Part shown: positions 583-32,727 of the stretch, one piece after another
How positions within the stretch are numbered: the first letter of the stretch is position 1
Layout of the letters: every line of letters starts with the position of its first letter
Assembly: GCF_002434505.1 (NCBI RefSeq)
Contig: NZ_DJKE01000001.1
Span: 310,001 to 374,000 of the forward strand
Source of the DNA: Brevundimonas sp. UBA6550
GTDB lineage: Bacteria; Pseudomonadota; Alphaproteobacteria; Caulobacterales; Caulobacteraceae
Direction: 5' to 3'
Length of the DNA stretch: 64,000 bases
The notes under the pieces: model-generated
The model's input: only the letters and a program-made list of their open reading frames with translations
Told to the model about the DNA's origin: nothing
Databases searched by the model: none
Program-made: the position numbers and the translations under genes

Positions 583-748
583 AGCCGGCGCTTGCTTTTC
601 GCGGCGCGAGGCCGCATCAGGACGTCATCACCTTGGACCCGGCCCTGTTCGCAGGCGACGGGTGGCTATCCCCGCCGCCGATCCGCTGGGAAACCGAACC
701 GCCGGAAACCGCATCGTCGGGCGCGGCTCATCCAGATGAAATTCCGAC

Positions 749-28116: not shown

Positions 28117-29865
28117 CTAGTTCAGGCCCGCATCGGCGCGGCGCGCACGCACGATCTCGGCCAGGTCCGCCATGATGCTCTCGGTCGTGGCCCAGCGCCC
28201 GGCGCCGCGTCCGCGACAGCGCCAGACCCGACCGTCCGCGCCGTAAACCTTCAGCGCATTGCCCTCGCCGCACAGGTTGGAGAACAGCGGATCGCCGTGG
28301 TCGGCGTTCAACGACACCGACGGGCTGATCACCCCGTCCTTCAGATGGGCGGCGCCGATCTGGCGCACCCCGCCCTCGGCGGAGGTGGCCTCGGTCAGGT
28401 GGTCGCGCGGCACGTCGCCATCGGGCGACCGGCCGAACGCCTCGTGGCACAGCAGCCGCACCTTGGCCGCCGCATCCAGCCCTTCCAGGTCCGACGAGGG
28501 GTCTTCCTCGGCGAAGCCCGCCGCGCGGGCGTCGGCCAGGGCCTCGCCGAAGGCCGCGCCGTCGCCCAGACGCTCCAGCATGAAGTTGACCGTGCCGTTC
28601 AGCACCGCCTCGAAGCCGACCACCTCGCCCGCCGCGCGGGCGGCGCGGACCGTCTCGACCATCGGCGCCCCGCCGCCGACCGAGGCCGACCAGAAGACGC
28701 GACGGCCGTGCTGTCGGGCCAGATCCTGCAGCCCGCCGGGATCGCGGCTGACCGCCTGTTTGTTGGCGCTGGCCACGTCGCAGCCGGCCTCCAGCGCGGC
28801 GCGGATCACCGCATGGCCCGCCTCGCCTTCCGACAGGGCCTCCAGCACGATGTCAGGTTTGCGTGACAGCAGCTCATCGGCGCTGGCCGTGAACAGAGAG
28901 GGCGGACAGGCCACGTCGCGCGGCTTCTTCGGATTACGCACCAGCACGCCCACCACGTCGTATCGCGGATCGACCAGCAGCCGGCCCAGGACCCCGCCGC
29001 CCACCACGCCGCAGCCGGCGACGGCCACCTTCAGCGGCGGCAGGGCCGGGGCCGGTCCGGGGGGCGCCGACTTGTCGCCGATCACCGTGCCGTCGGCCCG
29101 ATCAAGCGCCGCCACCTCGATCTCCACCCCCCGGCTTTCGCCCAGGTCGATGGCGTCGTGCTGCACCAGGGCGCCGCCCAGCTTGCGCGCCACATCCCAG
29201 GAGGCGCGGCGATAACGCAGGGCCGGGGCCGTCTTGTCGTTGGGGTCGTGATCGTAGAGACCGTCCACATCCTTGACCAGCCGCACCTTCTTCAGCCCCA
29301 GCTCGGCCGCCAGGAAGACCGCCGTCAGGTCCGATCCGCCGCGTCCCAGCAGGGCCACCCGCCCGTCGGGCCGCACGGCGCCGAAGCCGGGCACCACCAC
29401 CACCTCGTGCCGATCCAGCGCCTGTTTCAGATGGTCGGGCCGCAGGCCGCAGGGGCGCGAATGCTCCGGCTCGCCTTCCGCCACGATGCCCAGTTCGCGC
29501 ACCGACAGGGCGCAGGCGTCCAGGCCGATCCGGTCGCAGGCGATGGCGACCAGGGCCGCCGACTTCTCCTCGCCCAGGGCCACATAGCCGGGCAGGAGGT
29601 CGTTGGAATGGGCCAGGCCCAGCGCCCGCGCCTCGCCCAGCAGCCGATCCGTCGCCCCGCCGAAGGCCGAGACCACCGCCACCACCTTTCGCCCCGCCCG
29701 CACATGGCCATAGACGGCCGAGGCGACCAGCGGCGCCTCCGCCGGGCTGCGCAGGATGGACGAGCCGAACTTCAGCACCACCACCTCGGGCGCGGGATCG
29801 GCGGCGAGCCGACAATCGGGATCGAGCGGTTCGGATTTCTCTACGACGGCGAGGGAGGCGGACAT
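28117..29865 (-). CDS. Aspartate kinase-homoserine dehydrogenase fusion without ACT domains
   Basis: The 582-residue protein contains a complete aspartate kinase domain (residues about 30-260: VVVLKFGSSIL, VVAVVSAFGGATDRLL, ALGEEKSAALVA, LLGRGGSDLTAVFLAAELG, VKDVDGLYDHDPN), then a complete homoserine dehydrogenase domain (from about 270: VAVAGCGVVGGGVLGRL, SANKQAVS, SASVGGGAPMV, LNGTVNFML, EEDPSSDLEGLDAAAKVRLL). No ACT domain lies between or after them, unlike ThrA/MetL. It supplies aspartyl-phosphate and homoserine. It is the first gene of an operon with thrB and is preceded by a leader with an attenuator (29900-30047). Start ATG at 29865. Confidence 0.87.
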   Translation of the reverse strand: MSASLAVVEKSEPLDPDCRLAADPAPEVVVLKFGSSILRSPAEAPLVASAVYGHVRAGRKVVAVVSAFGGATDRLLGEARALGLAHSNDLLPGYVALGEEKSAALVAIACDRIGLDACALSVRELGIVAEGEPEHSRPCGLRPDHLKQALDRHEVVVVPGFGAVRPDGRVALLGRGGSDLTAVFLAAELGLKKVRLVKDVDGLYDHDPNDKTAPALRYRRASWDVARKLGGALVQHDAIDLGESRGVEIEVAALDRADGTVIGDKSAPPGPAPALPPLKVAVAGCGVVGGGVLGRLLVDPRYDVVGVLVRNPKKPRDVACPPSLFTASADELLSRKPDIVLEALSEGEAGHAVIRAALEAGCDVASANKQAVSRDPGGLQDLARQHGRRVFWSASVGGGAPMVETVRAARAAGEVVGFEAVLNGTVNFMLERLGDGAAFGEALADARAAGFAEEDPSSDLEGLDAAAKVRLLCHEAFGRSPDGDVPRDHLTEATSAEGGVRQIGAAHLKDGVISPSVSLNADHGDPLFSNLCGEGNALKVYGADGRVWRCRGRGAGRWATTESIMADLAEIVRARRADAGLN

Positions 29866-29899
29866 CGGGGTTCTCGGATTTCTGTGGGGAGCGTGGGGT

Positions 29900-29936
29900 G
29901 AAAAGAAAAACCCCGCCTGGCGGACCGGGCGGGGTT
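29900..29936 (-). terminator. Intrinsic terminator in the leader of the kinase-dehydrogenase gene (attenuator)
   Basis: On the minus strand AACCCCGCC (29936-29928) and GGCGGGGTT (29917-29909) form a 9-bp stem with a 10-nt loop, followed by a T-rich run TTTTTCTTTTC (29910-29900). No gene lies upstream on this strand within the region, so it is not a gene-end terminator but sits in the 5' leader, 35 bp before the ATG. An alternative pairing partner for its 5' arm lies at 29977-29984. Confidence 0.8.
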
Positions 29937-29966
29937 CGGGTTCTGCGTTCGCCTGTGTTCGGCGTG

Positions 29967-30047
29967 CTAAACTCGTCCCGCCCGACTGGGCATGGTGGTG
30001 GCGCCGGTCGTGCCGCCGATAATGGTTCCGCCGAGGATCGCGCCCAT
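29967..30047 (-). CDS. Thr/Ile-rich leader peptide ORF (26 aa), attenuator control
   Basis: ATG at 30047 opens a 26-codon ORF ending at TAG 29967. It has Thr at codons 8, 13, 14, 17 and 18 and Ile at 4, 9 and 10, i.e. 8 of 26 codons, grouped before the control hairpin. A GTG at 30113 could give a longer, 48-codon form. No good Shine-Dalgarno is seen. Codons 22-24 (CGGGCGGG, 29984-29977) are exactly complementary to CCCGCCCG (29933-29926) in the terminator 5' arm, so a stalled ribosome at the Thr codons would leave the antiterminator free. This is the classical thr-type design. Confidence 0.65.
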   Translation of the reverse strand: MGAILGGTIIGGTTGATTMPSRAGRV

Positions 30048-30165
30048 GCCGAAGACCGTCGCGGCGGCGCCGGCGACGGTGGAAACTTCGGCGATGAACG
30101 AGCGCTGCAGCACGGGACAGGTCCGGTTGAAATCTTCGCCTAGGGTGATTGGCGCACCCCCGGTC

Positions 30166-30171
30166 TGTCAA
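30166..30171 (-). promoter_or_regulatory. Candidate -35 box of the leader/kinase-dehydrogenase promoter
   Basis: TTGACA (30171-30166 on the minus strand) is a perfect -35 box. A -10 at the usual 17-nt spacing is poor (TCACCC). The start of the attenuator transcript would be about 30135. Moderate support from sequence only. Confidence 0.35.
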
Positions 30172-30300
30172 GCGCCCTTGGATGATTTTTTCACGACAAG
30201 GCGATTTCGGCCCGTTTCACACCCGATGCGGTCATGCCACGCCCGCATATAGGTGGAATTTTCCGCTTGACCGGCGCCGCCTGTTTGATCAACGTAAAGT

Positions 30301-30413
30301 CACTCATCAAGACCGGCTGAGGGATTAGGCCCTTTGACGCCGGGGCAACCATCGGGTTCCGCCCGAAACGGTGCCAACTCCTGCGGGGTCCTTCGGGCCG
30401 CGAGAGATGAGTG
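30301..30413 (+). promoter_or_regulatory. SAM-I (S-box) riboswitch upstream of metX-metB
   Basis: P1 pairs CACTCATC (30301-30308) with GATGAGTG (30406-30413), 8 bp perfect. Between them the S-box core is seen in order: CAAGA, GGCTGAGGGA, GGCCC, TGACGCCGGGGCAACC, GGTGCCAACTCCTGC and GAGAGATGAG. These match the SAM-I consensus blocks. Downstream, CCGCATCG (30448-30455) and CGATGCGG (30476-30483) form a perfect hairpin next to the metX start (30494), suggesting a translational platform; there is no T-run. SAM binding would reduce methionine gene expression. Confidence 0.88.
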
Positions 30414-30493
30414 GAGCATCGACGAGGCGACGCTCCACGATCTGTCACCGCATCGAGACCTTGCTGAGGCGAGAACGATGCGGACGACGATTG

Positions 30494-31549
30494 ATGACCC
30501 TGGCTGAAACATCCCTGCTTGAAGAGCCCTTCTGTCGGCCCCAGCCGATCGACACGCCGGTTGTGCGCGAACCGACGCGCGAACGCGGCGGCGCCCGCGA
30601 CGTCATCGTGCCCATCCCCGCCGACTTCCGCCTGGCTTCGGGCGAAAAGCTGAACCAACCCAATATCGTGGGTCGTCTGCACGGCCGCGTCGGGGCGCCT
30701 GTCGTCGTCGTCGCCGGCGGCATTTCGGCCGGGCGTTTCGTTCACCGCACCGAGACCAACGGCCTGGGCTGGTGGTCGGGCGCCGTGTCGGTGCGCGGCC
30801 CCATCGACCTGAGCCGATTCCAGGTTCTGGCCGTCGATTTCGCCCCCGGCGCCGAGTTCCTGGCTGCGCCCGTCACCATCACCACCCACGACCAGGCGCG
30901 CCTGCTGGCCCTGGTGCTGAACCATCTGAGGATCGAGCGGGTCGCCGCCTTCGTCGGCTGCTCTTACGGCGGCATGGTCGGCCTGGCCTTCGCCGAACTG
31001 TTCCCCGACTGGGCCGAACAGCTGATCGTGGTGTCCGCCGCACACCGCGCCCATCCCCAGGCCACCGCCTGGCGCGGCATCCAGCGCCGCATCCTGCAGT
31101 TCGCCGTCGCAGCCGGCCGCCCGGAGGAAGGCGTCGCCCTGGCCCGCGAACTGGCCATGACCACCTATCGCACGGCCGAGGAGTTCCACGACCGGTTCGA
31201 GACCACCGCGCCCACGGCCGTCGGCGGCGCCTATCCCGTCTGCGACTATCTGACGGCGCGGGGCCAGGCTTACCGCACCCACACCACCCCGGCCCGCTGG
31301 CTGTCGATGTCCGATTCCCTGGATCGCCACAGCGTGACCCCCGAGGCCATCAAGACCCCGGTCACCCTGATCGGCTTCACCTCCGACCGTCTAGTCCCGA
31401 TCGACGACATCCGCGAACTGGCCGCGCGGTTGCCGACCCTGTGGCGCTTCGTCGAGGCGCCCTCCCTCTTTGGCCACGACGCCTTTCTGAAGGAGGACGC
31501 CTTCGTCGGCGACATCCTCCGCGCCGCCTTCAAGGACATCAAAGCATGA
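30494..31549 (+). CDS. metX: Homoserine O-acyltransferase, MetX-like
   Basis: The 351-residue alpha/beta-hydrolase-fold acyltransferase begins MTLAETSLLEEPFCRPQP. It has the nucleophile motif GCSYGGMVGLAFAELFPDWA (Ser about residue 157) and the late His in LFGHDAFLKED, and Asp in FTSDRLVPIDDIREL. Whether it uses acetyl-CoA or succinyl-CoA cannot be told; MetX-type enzymes of this length with a GxSYGGM elbow can be succinyltransferases. ATG at 30494, 80 bp after the riboswitch. It overlaps metB by 4 nt. Confidence 0.88.
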   Translation: MTLAETSLLEEPFCRPQPIDTPVVREPTRERGGARDVIVPIPADFRLASGEKLNQPNIVGRLHGRVGAPVVVVAGGISAGRFVHRTETNGLGWWSGAVSVRGPIDLSRFQVLAVDFAPGAEFLAAPVTITTHDQARLLALVLNHLRIERVAAFVGCSYGGMVGLAFAELFPDWAEQLIVVSAAHRAHPQATAWRGIQRRILQFAVAAGRPEEGVALARELAMTTYRTAEEFHDRFETTAPTAVGGAYPVCDYLTARGQAYRTHTTPARWLSMSDSLDRHSVTPEAIKTPVTLIGFTSDRLVPIDDIRELAARLPTLWRFVEAPSLFGHDAFLKEDAFVGDILRAAFKDIKA

Positions 31550-32727
31550 CTTCCCGTCCCGCCAATCCGCACACCATCGCCGCCCGCACGGGCGTGGATT
31601 CGGACACGGCCCACGGCGCGGTCATGCCGCCGCTCTATCTGTCGTCCAACTATTCCTTCGCCGGCTTCGAGCAGAAGCGGAAGTACGACTACAGCCGCTC
31701 GGGCAACCCTACCCGCGACGTCCTGGCCGAGACCCTGACCGAGCTGGAAGGCGGCGCGGGCGCCGTCATCACCGCCACCGGCATGGCCGCCGTCGACCTG
31801 CCCCTGGCCCTGCTGGAGCCGGGCGATCTGCTGATCGCGCCGCACGACTGTTACGGCGGCACCTGCCGCCTGCTGAACGCCCGCGCCAAGAAGGGGCATT
31901 TTGAACTGCTGCTGGTCGATCAGGGCGATCCCGTCGCCTTCGAGGCCGCCTTGGCGCTGAAGCCCAAGCTGGTTCTGGTCGAGACCCCGTCCAACCCGCT
32001 GCTGCGCCTGGTCGATGTCGCCGACATCTGCACCCGCGCCCATGCGGCGGGCGCCAAGGTCGTCTGCGACAACACCTTCCTGTCGCCAGCGCTGCAGAAC
32101 CCGATCAAGCTGGGCGCCGACTTCGTGGTCCACTCGACGACCAAGTTCATCAACGGCCATTCCGACGTGGTCGGCGGCGCGGTCATCTCGGCCGACGCCG
32201 AGGATCATCAAACCCTGGCCTGGTGGGCCAACTGCACCGGCGTGACCGGCTCGCCCTTCGACGCCTATCTGACCCTGCGCGGCGTGCGGACCCTGTTCGC
32301 CCGTATCGAACGGCAACAGGCCACCGCCAGCAAGATCGCGGAGCTTCTGAACGCCCACCCGGCGGTCAAGGCCGTCCACTATCCGGGTCTGAAGTCGCAC
32401 CCCAGCCATGCCCTGGTCGCCGCCCAGCAGGCTGGCCCCGGCGCCATGCTCAGCTTCGAGCTGGAAGGCGGGACCGAGGCCGTGCGCGATCTGGTCGAGA
32501 CGCTGGAGATCTTCACCCTGGCCGAATCGCTGGGCGGCGTCGAAAGCCTGATCGCCCACCCCGCCACCATGACCCACGCCGCCATGACGCCGGAGCAGCG
32601 CGCCACCGCCGGCATCGGCGACGGTCTGGTCCGCCTGTCGGTCGGGCTGGAGCACGTCGAGGACCTGATCGCCGACCTGTTCCCGGCGCTGGACGCCCTG
32701 GCGCCCGCCAAGGCGGAAGCCGCATAA
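31546..32727 (+). CDS. metB: Cystathionine gamma-synthase
   Basis: The 393-residue PLP enzyme belongs to the Cys/Met metabolism family. The PLP lysine is in HSTTKFINGHSD (about residue 200); YDYSRSGNPTRDVLAETL and ETPSNPLLR are typical. EGGAGAVITATGMAAV contacts PLP. It makes cystathionine from O-acylhomoserine and cysteine; O-acylhomoserine sulfhydrylase (MetZ) cannot be excluded. It is translationally coupled to metX (ATGA at 31546). Confidence 0.9.
   Translation: MTSRPANPHTIAARTGVDSDTAHGAVMPPLYLSSNYSFAGFEQKRKYDYSRSGNPTRDVLAETLTELEGGAGAVITATGMAAVDLPLALLEPGDLLIAPHDCYGGTCRLLNARAKKGHFELLLVDQGDPVAFEAALALKPKLVLVETPSNPLLRLVDVADICTRAHAAGAKVVCDNTFLSPALQNPIKLGADFVVHSTTKFINGHSDVVGGAVISADAEDHQTLAWWANCTGVTGSPFDAYLTLRGVRTLFARIERQQATASKIAELLNAHPAVKAVHYPGLKSHPSHALVAAQQAGPGAMLSFELEGGTEAVRDLVETLEIFTLAESLGGVESLIAHPATMTHAAMTPEQRATAGIGDGLVRLSVGLEHVEDLIADLFPALDALAPAKAEAA

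Follow-up and report, generated by a model that had tools for sequence, protein, structure and literature searches.

Threonine, isoleucine and methionine are all made from homoserine, and in a Brevundimonas genome a spacer of 628 bp separates two divergent genes of this pathway, an aspartokinase-homoserine dehydrogenase fusion (start 29865, minus strand) and metX (start 30494, plus strand). How are the supply of homoserine and its use for methionine controlled from so short a region? We examined the locus within a stretch of 64,000 nucleotides (the window), whose fusion has its closest named match in Brevundimonas sp. EYE_349 (98%). The initial annotation had read a thr-type attenuator on the minus strand and a SAM-I riboswitch on the plus strand, with threonine and methionine branches controlled independently from one spacer. 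Judged by its sequence, the observation of two opposed RNA switches in one short Brevundimonas spacer is confirmed, and we give a probability of about 0.85 to the reading that two divergent transcripts arise here, with a ribosome-mediated Thr/Ile attenuator acting on the fusion and a SAM-I riboswitch acting on metX-metB.

Leader, terminator and predicted antiterminator ahead of the fusion gene

The minus-strand features are as follows.

28117..29865, minus: aspartokinase-homoserine dehydrogenase fusion, 582 aa at 28120-29865 (Pfam)
29901..29909, minus: terminator U-tract (sequence)
29910..29935, minus: intrinsic terminator hairpin (regions 3 and 4), -21.1 kcal/mol at 30 C (scan and fold)
29967..30113, minus: leader peptide ORF, 48 codons, GTG start, TAG stop (ORF listing)
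29977..29984, minus: region 2 (CGGGCGGG), 5' strand of the antiterminator, within the last leader codons (fold)
29988..29991, minus: region 1 (GCCC), able to pair with region 2 (fold of the untranslated leader)
29994..30026, minus: control codons, five Thr and two Ile in 11 codons, then Met at codon -8 (codon reading)
30167..30171, minus: TTGAC box, candidate -35 of the leader transcript (conserved in relatives)

The leader ORF ends in TIIGGTTGATTMPSRAGRV, with the end codons ACC ATT ATC GGC GGC ACG ACC GGC GCC ACC ACC ATG CCC and the C-terminus T I I G G T T G A T T M P S R A G R V. In E. coli, the thr operon attenuator (thrL) consists of a short leader peptide with Thr and Ile codons, whose last codons hold the antiterminator strand, and of a GC-rich terminator with a U-tract, followed by the aspartokinase-homoserine dehydrogenase gene. 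The window shares the Thr/Ile leader, the antiterminator strand in the leader end, the terminator and the fusion as the next gene, so that the minus-strand device is, by its anatomy, a threonine-type ribosome-mediated attenuator. It differs from thrL in its 48-codon leader with a GTG start, in the frequent Met codons of the related leaders, in a fusion without ACT domains, and in that none of the five Rfam matches to 29840-30540 up to E 5 is to Thr_leader, the family of the gammaproteobacterial thr leader.

The leader start position is conserved among relatives, with a start codon that varies between GTG, TTG and ATG; internal ATGs were rejected as starts because the conserved start lies at about -37 to -48 codons. 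An E. coli-type promoter scan of the spacer region gave 0 matches, and a TTGAC box is present upstream of the leader in all 27 loci printed. The terminator scan gave one minus-strand match and is weak by itself, because its 2 matches in 801 bases compare with 0.7 expected in shuffles.

Comparison with relatives bears out the attenuator. We took 63 related loci, three of which (L056, L068 and L090) end at contig edges and were not judged; a Thr/Ile-rich leader with a terminator is present in 58 of the 60 assessable loci, which with the window makes 59 leaders, and the two loci that lack it (L083 and L092) are colinear metX-metB-homoserine dehydrogenase (HSD) arrangements. The combination of at least four Thr in the best scanning window and a terminator was found in 0/14 control rows from other HSD genes and 0/18 from other families, although these rows are partly non-independent (L092 and L097 are apparently one contig, L139 and L140 repeat the genes of L111 and L106, and L141 is a kinase gene).

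Among 28 dissimilar Brevundimonas leaders, codons -16 to -7 (280 codons) comprise 155 Thr, 35 Gly, 33 Met, 27 Ile, 16 Pro and few others, and Thr stands at 10 times the codon background, which was taken from the window alone, with probabilities that ignore descent. This enrichment is in part by construction, because ORFs were picked by their Thr+Ile content, yet the Thr-rich stretch always lies at the same position ahead of the same gene. Ile is present within codons -24 to -7 of 57/59 leaders. The last Thr or Ile codon, where a stalled ribosome starts to cover region 2, is at -9, -7 and -6 in 43, 11 and 5 of the 59 leaders respectively (window included).

An alternative explanation is that the terminator alone matters, yielding a short RNA or trimming background transcription, and that the leader ORF is no sensor. 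The weak codon-level selection on the leader body (116 synonymous and 225 other substitutions in frame, 115 and 248 in the +1 frame, hardly any excess) is consistent with this, as is a sub-threshold match to the RcsR1 sRNA over the 3' part (16.4 bits, cut-off 60). However, Thr reaches about 10 times background beside the stop codon in the diverged leaders from two families, invariably ahead of the fusion and at a fixed distance to region 2, and we regard this explanation as very improbable. A chance ORF before a plain terminator was likewise rejected, given the conservation in two families.

The sequence elements of the predicted pairings recur in most leaders. GCCC and GGGC, corresponding to regions 1 and 2, occur in 46/59, GGCGGG lies within the last six codons of 56/59, and the leader codons CGG GCG GG are able to pair with the terminator 5' arm. 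In the computed window fold with a ribosome on the last Thr codon, the antiterminator (-35.4 kcal/mol) persists after the terminator 3' arm is added, and with a ribosome at the stop codon only the terminator remains; in the computed structures, formation of the antiterminator thus precludes the terminator, and a ribosome that has reached the stop blocks the antiterminator. When the ribosome is at codon -16, on Met -8, or absent, the minimum-energy fold contains the terminator, and for the first two positions antitermination must therefore rest on the order of folding.

When the related leaders are folded, the arm keeps a pairing of roughly 0.6-1.0 when the ribosome stalls on a control codon up to -9; where the group runs to -7 or -6, a stall on the final one or two Thr codons lowers this to 0.2-0.6. 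Two leaders (L057 and L091) depart from the pattern, with an arm that stays paired after the control codons, and many leaders retain other arm pairing, as high as about 0.8, even when the ribosome has reached the stop. Pairing between region 2 and the arm beats shuffles in 33/59 Brevundimonas leaders and in 9/47 of a second Caulobacterales family, and cross-family swaps weaken a leader's pairing by 1.6 to 2.7 kcal/mol. Antiterminator covariation in Brevundimonas, as judged from these comparisons, appears positive but moderate, and in the second family it is weak.

We propose that, with ample charged tRNA-Thr and tRNA-Ile, the ribosome would reach the stop codon and cover region 2, so that the terminator would form and the fusion would stay untranscribed. 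When they are short, the ribosome would stall on the control codons and leave region 2 free to pair with the terminator 5' arm, and RNA polymerase would read through. This scheme and that for the plus strand are built on sequence features, conservation and computed pairings, from which we infer the promoters in use, the ligand response, read-through and the level of control.

The SAM-I riboswitch and metX-metB

The plus strand of the spacer and the genes beyond it carry the following features.

30267..30271, plus: TTGAC box, candidate -35 of the riboswitch transcript (conserved upstream of the aptamer core)
30301..30413, plus: SAM-I (S-box) aptamer, full length (RF00162, 85.5 bits)
30402..30447, plus: candidate hairpin taking the P1 3' strand, putative expression platform (RNAalifold, 29 platforms)
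30448..30483, plus: candidate second hairpin CCGCAUCG/CGAUGCGG, putative, just 5' of the metX start (RNAalifold)
30494..31549, plus: metX, homoserine O-succinyltransferase type (NCBIfam PRK08775, 393 bits, cut-off 296)
31546..32727, plus: metB/metZ-type PLP enzyme, overlapping the metX end (Pfam Cys_Met_Meta_PP, 452 bits)

The S-box covariance model matches 30301-30413 over model positions 1-108 of 108 with E 7.9e-19, and its score of 85.5 bits is to be compared with a gathering score of 44.4, which upholds the riboswitch as first annotated. As is usual for SAM-I, the complete aptamer precedes methionine genes, here metX and then a Cys/Met PLP enzyme; unlike the usual arrangement, no terminator follows it, the terminator scan of the window region having found none on the plus strand 3' of the aptamer. 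In 49/49 loci the aptamer core is preceded by a TTGAC box at a distance of no more than 60 nt. The second candidate hairpin is visible in a subgroup of 13 of the 29 platforms aligned. We tentatively suggest that SAM-I control of metX is exerted at translation. The plus transcript would begin near the aptamer, and binding of SAM would stabilise P1 and reduce expression of metX-metB. After an GAGGCGAG stretch, a nine-codon ORF (MRTTIDDPG) at 30479-30508 (plus) overlaps the metX start in another frame, and it might couple its translation with that of metX.

The presence of SAM-I in an alphaproteobacterium differs from the placement of this class in Firmicutes or Gram-positives in the portions of PMC4239095 and PMC1273637 available to us, which also describe SAM-II.

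Methionine codons and the probable control of the homoserine trunk

Where the initial annotation had assigned the attenuator to the threonine branch, the attenuated gene is that of the homoserine trunk (aspartokinase and homoserine dehydrogenase). The fusion supplies homoserine to both branches and the attenuator therefore governs the trunk, so that the two controls are nested, not parallel. On this arrangement of genes, the leader peptide probably controls the enzyme that makes homoserine and the SAM-sensing riboswitch probably controls the step towards methionine; homoserine supply would track the need for Thr and Ile, and its draw-off to methionine would track SAM.

ThrA/MetL-type bifunctional enzymes carry an ACT-type regulatory domain between kinase and dehydrogenase, whereas the window fusion shows AA_kinase (28-236), NAD_binding_3 (284-391) and Homoserine_dh (401-568), and a Pfam scan of nine fusions, the window's and eight others, detected no ACT domain. 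Its best NCBIfam match (163.8 bits) is under the cut-off of 205. The absent domain suggests that the fusion has lost allosteric control. The search of the window genome matched only this fusion and an aspartokinase, with no other homoserine dehydrogenase found. Because the fusion has no detectable ACT domain and is the only homoserine dehydrogenase found, attenuation may be the main end-product control of this step; the separate aspartokinase shows ACT domains, and some feedback on the first step of the pathway may therefore remain.

The Met codons of the leaders bear on whether the trunk also answers to methionine. The leader could be a sensor of three amino acids, in which Met codons are control codons too and the trunk responds to a shortage of Thr, Ile or Met, and we place this at rather less than even odds. 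Met is present within codons -24 to -7 of 59/59 Brevundimonas leaders and occurs at many different positions; its 33/280 in codons -16 to -7 of the 28 dissimilar leaders is 5.5 times background, and with codon -8 set aside it still makes up 32/476, 3.1 times background (P about 2e-8, descent ignored). One-step neighbours of ACC, the common Thr codon, are rare in the same stretch (Ala 5, Ser 5 and Asn 0 of 280). In the second family, where leaders were picked by Thr only, Met accounts for 27/372 codons of 31 dissimilar leaders and is present in 18/18 leaders of genus g21 and 7/7 of g4. Given this 3- to 5.5-fold enrichment in Brevundimonas, the trunk may answer to all three amino acids.

Met codons are not general, however, as Met is present in 0/6 leaders of g16, 0/2 of g23, 0/2 of g7 and 3/11 of g24. 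The only Met in the control stretch of the window is at -8, where a stalled ribosome gives about half pairing of the arm and the terminator wins at equilibrium, and the G of this ATG may owe its conservation to the 1:2 hairpin. No link was found between Met codons and the presence of SAM-I, and we rejected one because g21 has Met codons and no SAM-I match. We similarly rejected a link between missing Met codons and a second homoserine dehydrogenase, since several g21 genomes have both. The proposed independence of threonine and methionine control is supported in so far as the devices appear to be on two separate transcripts, but the Met codons of the leader may link the trunk with methionine as well, and if they do the two branches would not be fully independent.

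Distribution of the two devices among Caulobacterales

A SAM-I core is divergent from the leader, on the opposite strand, at 49/59 Brevundimonas leaders (window included), and the ten leaders without one also have no metX match within the 3 kb upstream examined. SAM-I was matched in 40/61 related genomes. Other Brevundimonas genomes have SAM-I followed by colinear metX, metB and a separate homoserine dehydrogenase, and no leader, and at L083 and L105 metX, metB and the AK-HSD fusion all run in one direction. Two Brevundimonas genomes have a second SAM-I copy away from the metX locus (G003:C1:951-1063 and G018:C178:5484-5593), and no match to metX, metB or the fusion was found beside these copies in the stretches L114 and L115. 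One Brevundimonas bin (G030) holds a leader-type fusion (C52), a colinear SAM-I-metX-metB-HSD locus (C270) and further fragments, and is probably a mixed bin.

In the second family (that of G047) the fusion was matched in 97/137 genomes, and 47/89 of the upstream regions examined have at least four Thr in twelve residues together with a terminator. By genus, leader and terminator are found in 6/6 for g16, 18/19 for g21, 2/2 for g23, 11/11 for g24, 1/1 for g27, 2/2 for g7 and 7/10 for g4, the remaining three g4 leaders being Thr-rich with no terminator detected, and in none for eight other genera. SAM-I was matched in 59/137 genomes of this family, with no match in g16, g21, g23, g24, g27 and g7 under strict filters that may lose weak matches. 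At least 11 genomes (G059, G062, G074, G075, G077, G080, G081, G107, G112, G115 and G156) have SAM-I divergent from a leaderless fusion. In a further family, that of G052, the fusion was matched in 12/62 genomes, and leader and terminator occur together in 0/11 readable upstream regions.

These distributions bear on the possibility that the two devices are one coupled unit, for instance through transcription interference or antisense contact in the spacer. The frequent divergent SAM-I core in Brevundimonas is what coupling would lead one to expect, but the two TTGAC boxes lie 95 bp apart and face outward, away from each other, so that the transcripts need not overlap. Moreover, ten leaders have no partner, the leader and SAM-I mostly occur in separate genera of the second family, and the genomes with SAM-I beside a leaderless fusion show the converse; we consider coupling to have only a slight chance of being correct. 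With leaders lacking SAM-I and SAM-I lacking leaders in both Brevundimonas and the second family, where SAM-I goes unmatched in six of the seven genera with the attenuator, we reject the spacer as an obligatory unit, and the initial picture of control from one shared spacer gives way to that of two separable devices.

On a tree of 57 fusions the leader label changes at least twice, which may reflect two gains, or one origin and two losses. Sub-threshold SAM_alpha (SAM-II) matches of 26-33 bits (cut-off 36, reached in none of the 137 second-family genomes) lie directly upstream of the fusion in genera without a Thr leader (G096:C33:1856-1935, G157:C19:1388-1464 and G094:C2:11463-11540), in G096 beside a divergent SAM-I at 590-697. 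Four other genomes of this family (G087, G126, G133 and G139) have sub-threshold SAM_alpha matches shortly upstream of a kinase-less homoserine dehydrogenase.

A possible history, which we advance tentatively, is that the ACT-less fusion of Brevundimonas, g21 and g4 exchanged enzyme feedback for a leader that counts Thr, Ile and Met, that sister lineages use SAM-I or possibly SAM-II, and that the controller was swapped repeatedly. The available text of PMC4239095 reports SAM_alpha (SAM-II) control of hom-metXC in Hyphomonadaceae; there, as here, homoserine-node genes of related bacteria are under a SAM riboswitch, whereas in the window homoserine dehydrogenase is behind a Thr leader and only metX-metB is behind SAM-I.

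Thr attenuators and SAM-I, as assigned here from sequence, are each already known kinds. Titles and abstracts of the literature searched hold no description of this attenuator, or of SAM-I at metX, in Brevundimonas, nor do the portions available of PMC1273637, PMC4239095, PMC1262725 and PMC2965389 describe this case; an earlier account is possible in the 2004 survey of proteobacterial attenuation by Vitreschak and co-workers, cited in PMC1273637. The present case would extend thr-type attenuation to two Caulobacterales families, ahead of an enzyme whose customary regulatory domains are missing, and the series of Thr leader, SAM-I operon and possibly SAM-II offers a natural view of how RNA controllers replace each other at one metabolic node.

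Elsewhere in the window, positions 632-695 (plus) match the Rfam sul1 RNA (RF03058) with 59.1 bits (cut-off 36.2).
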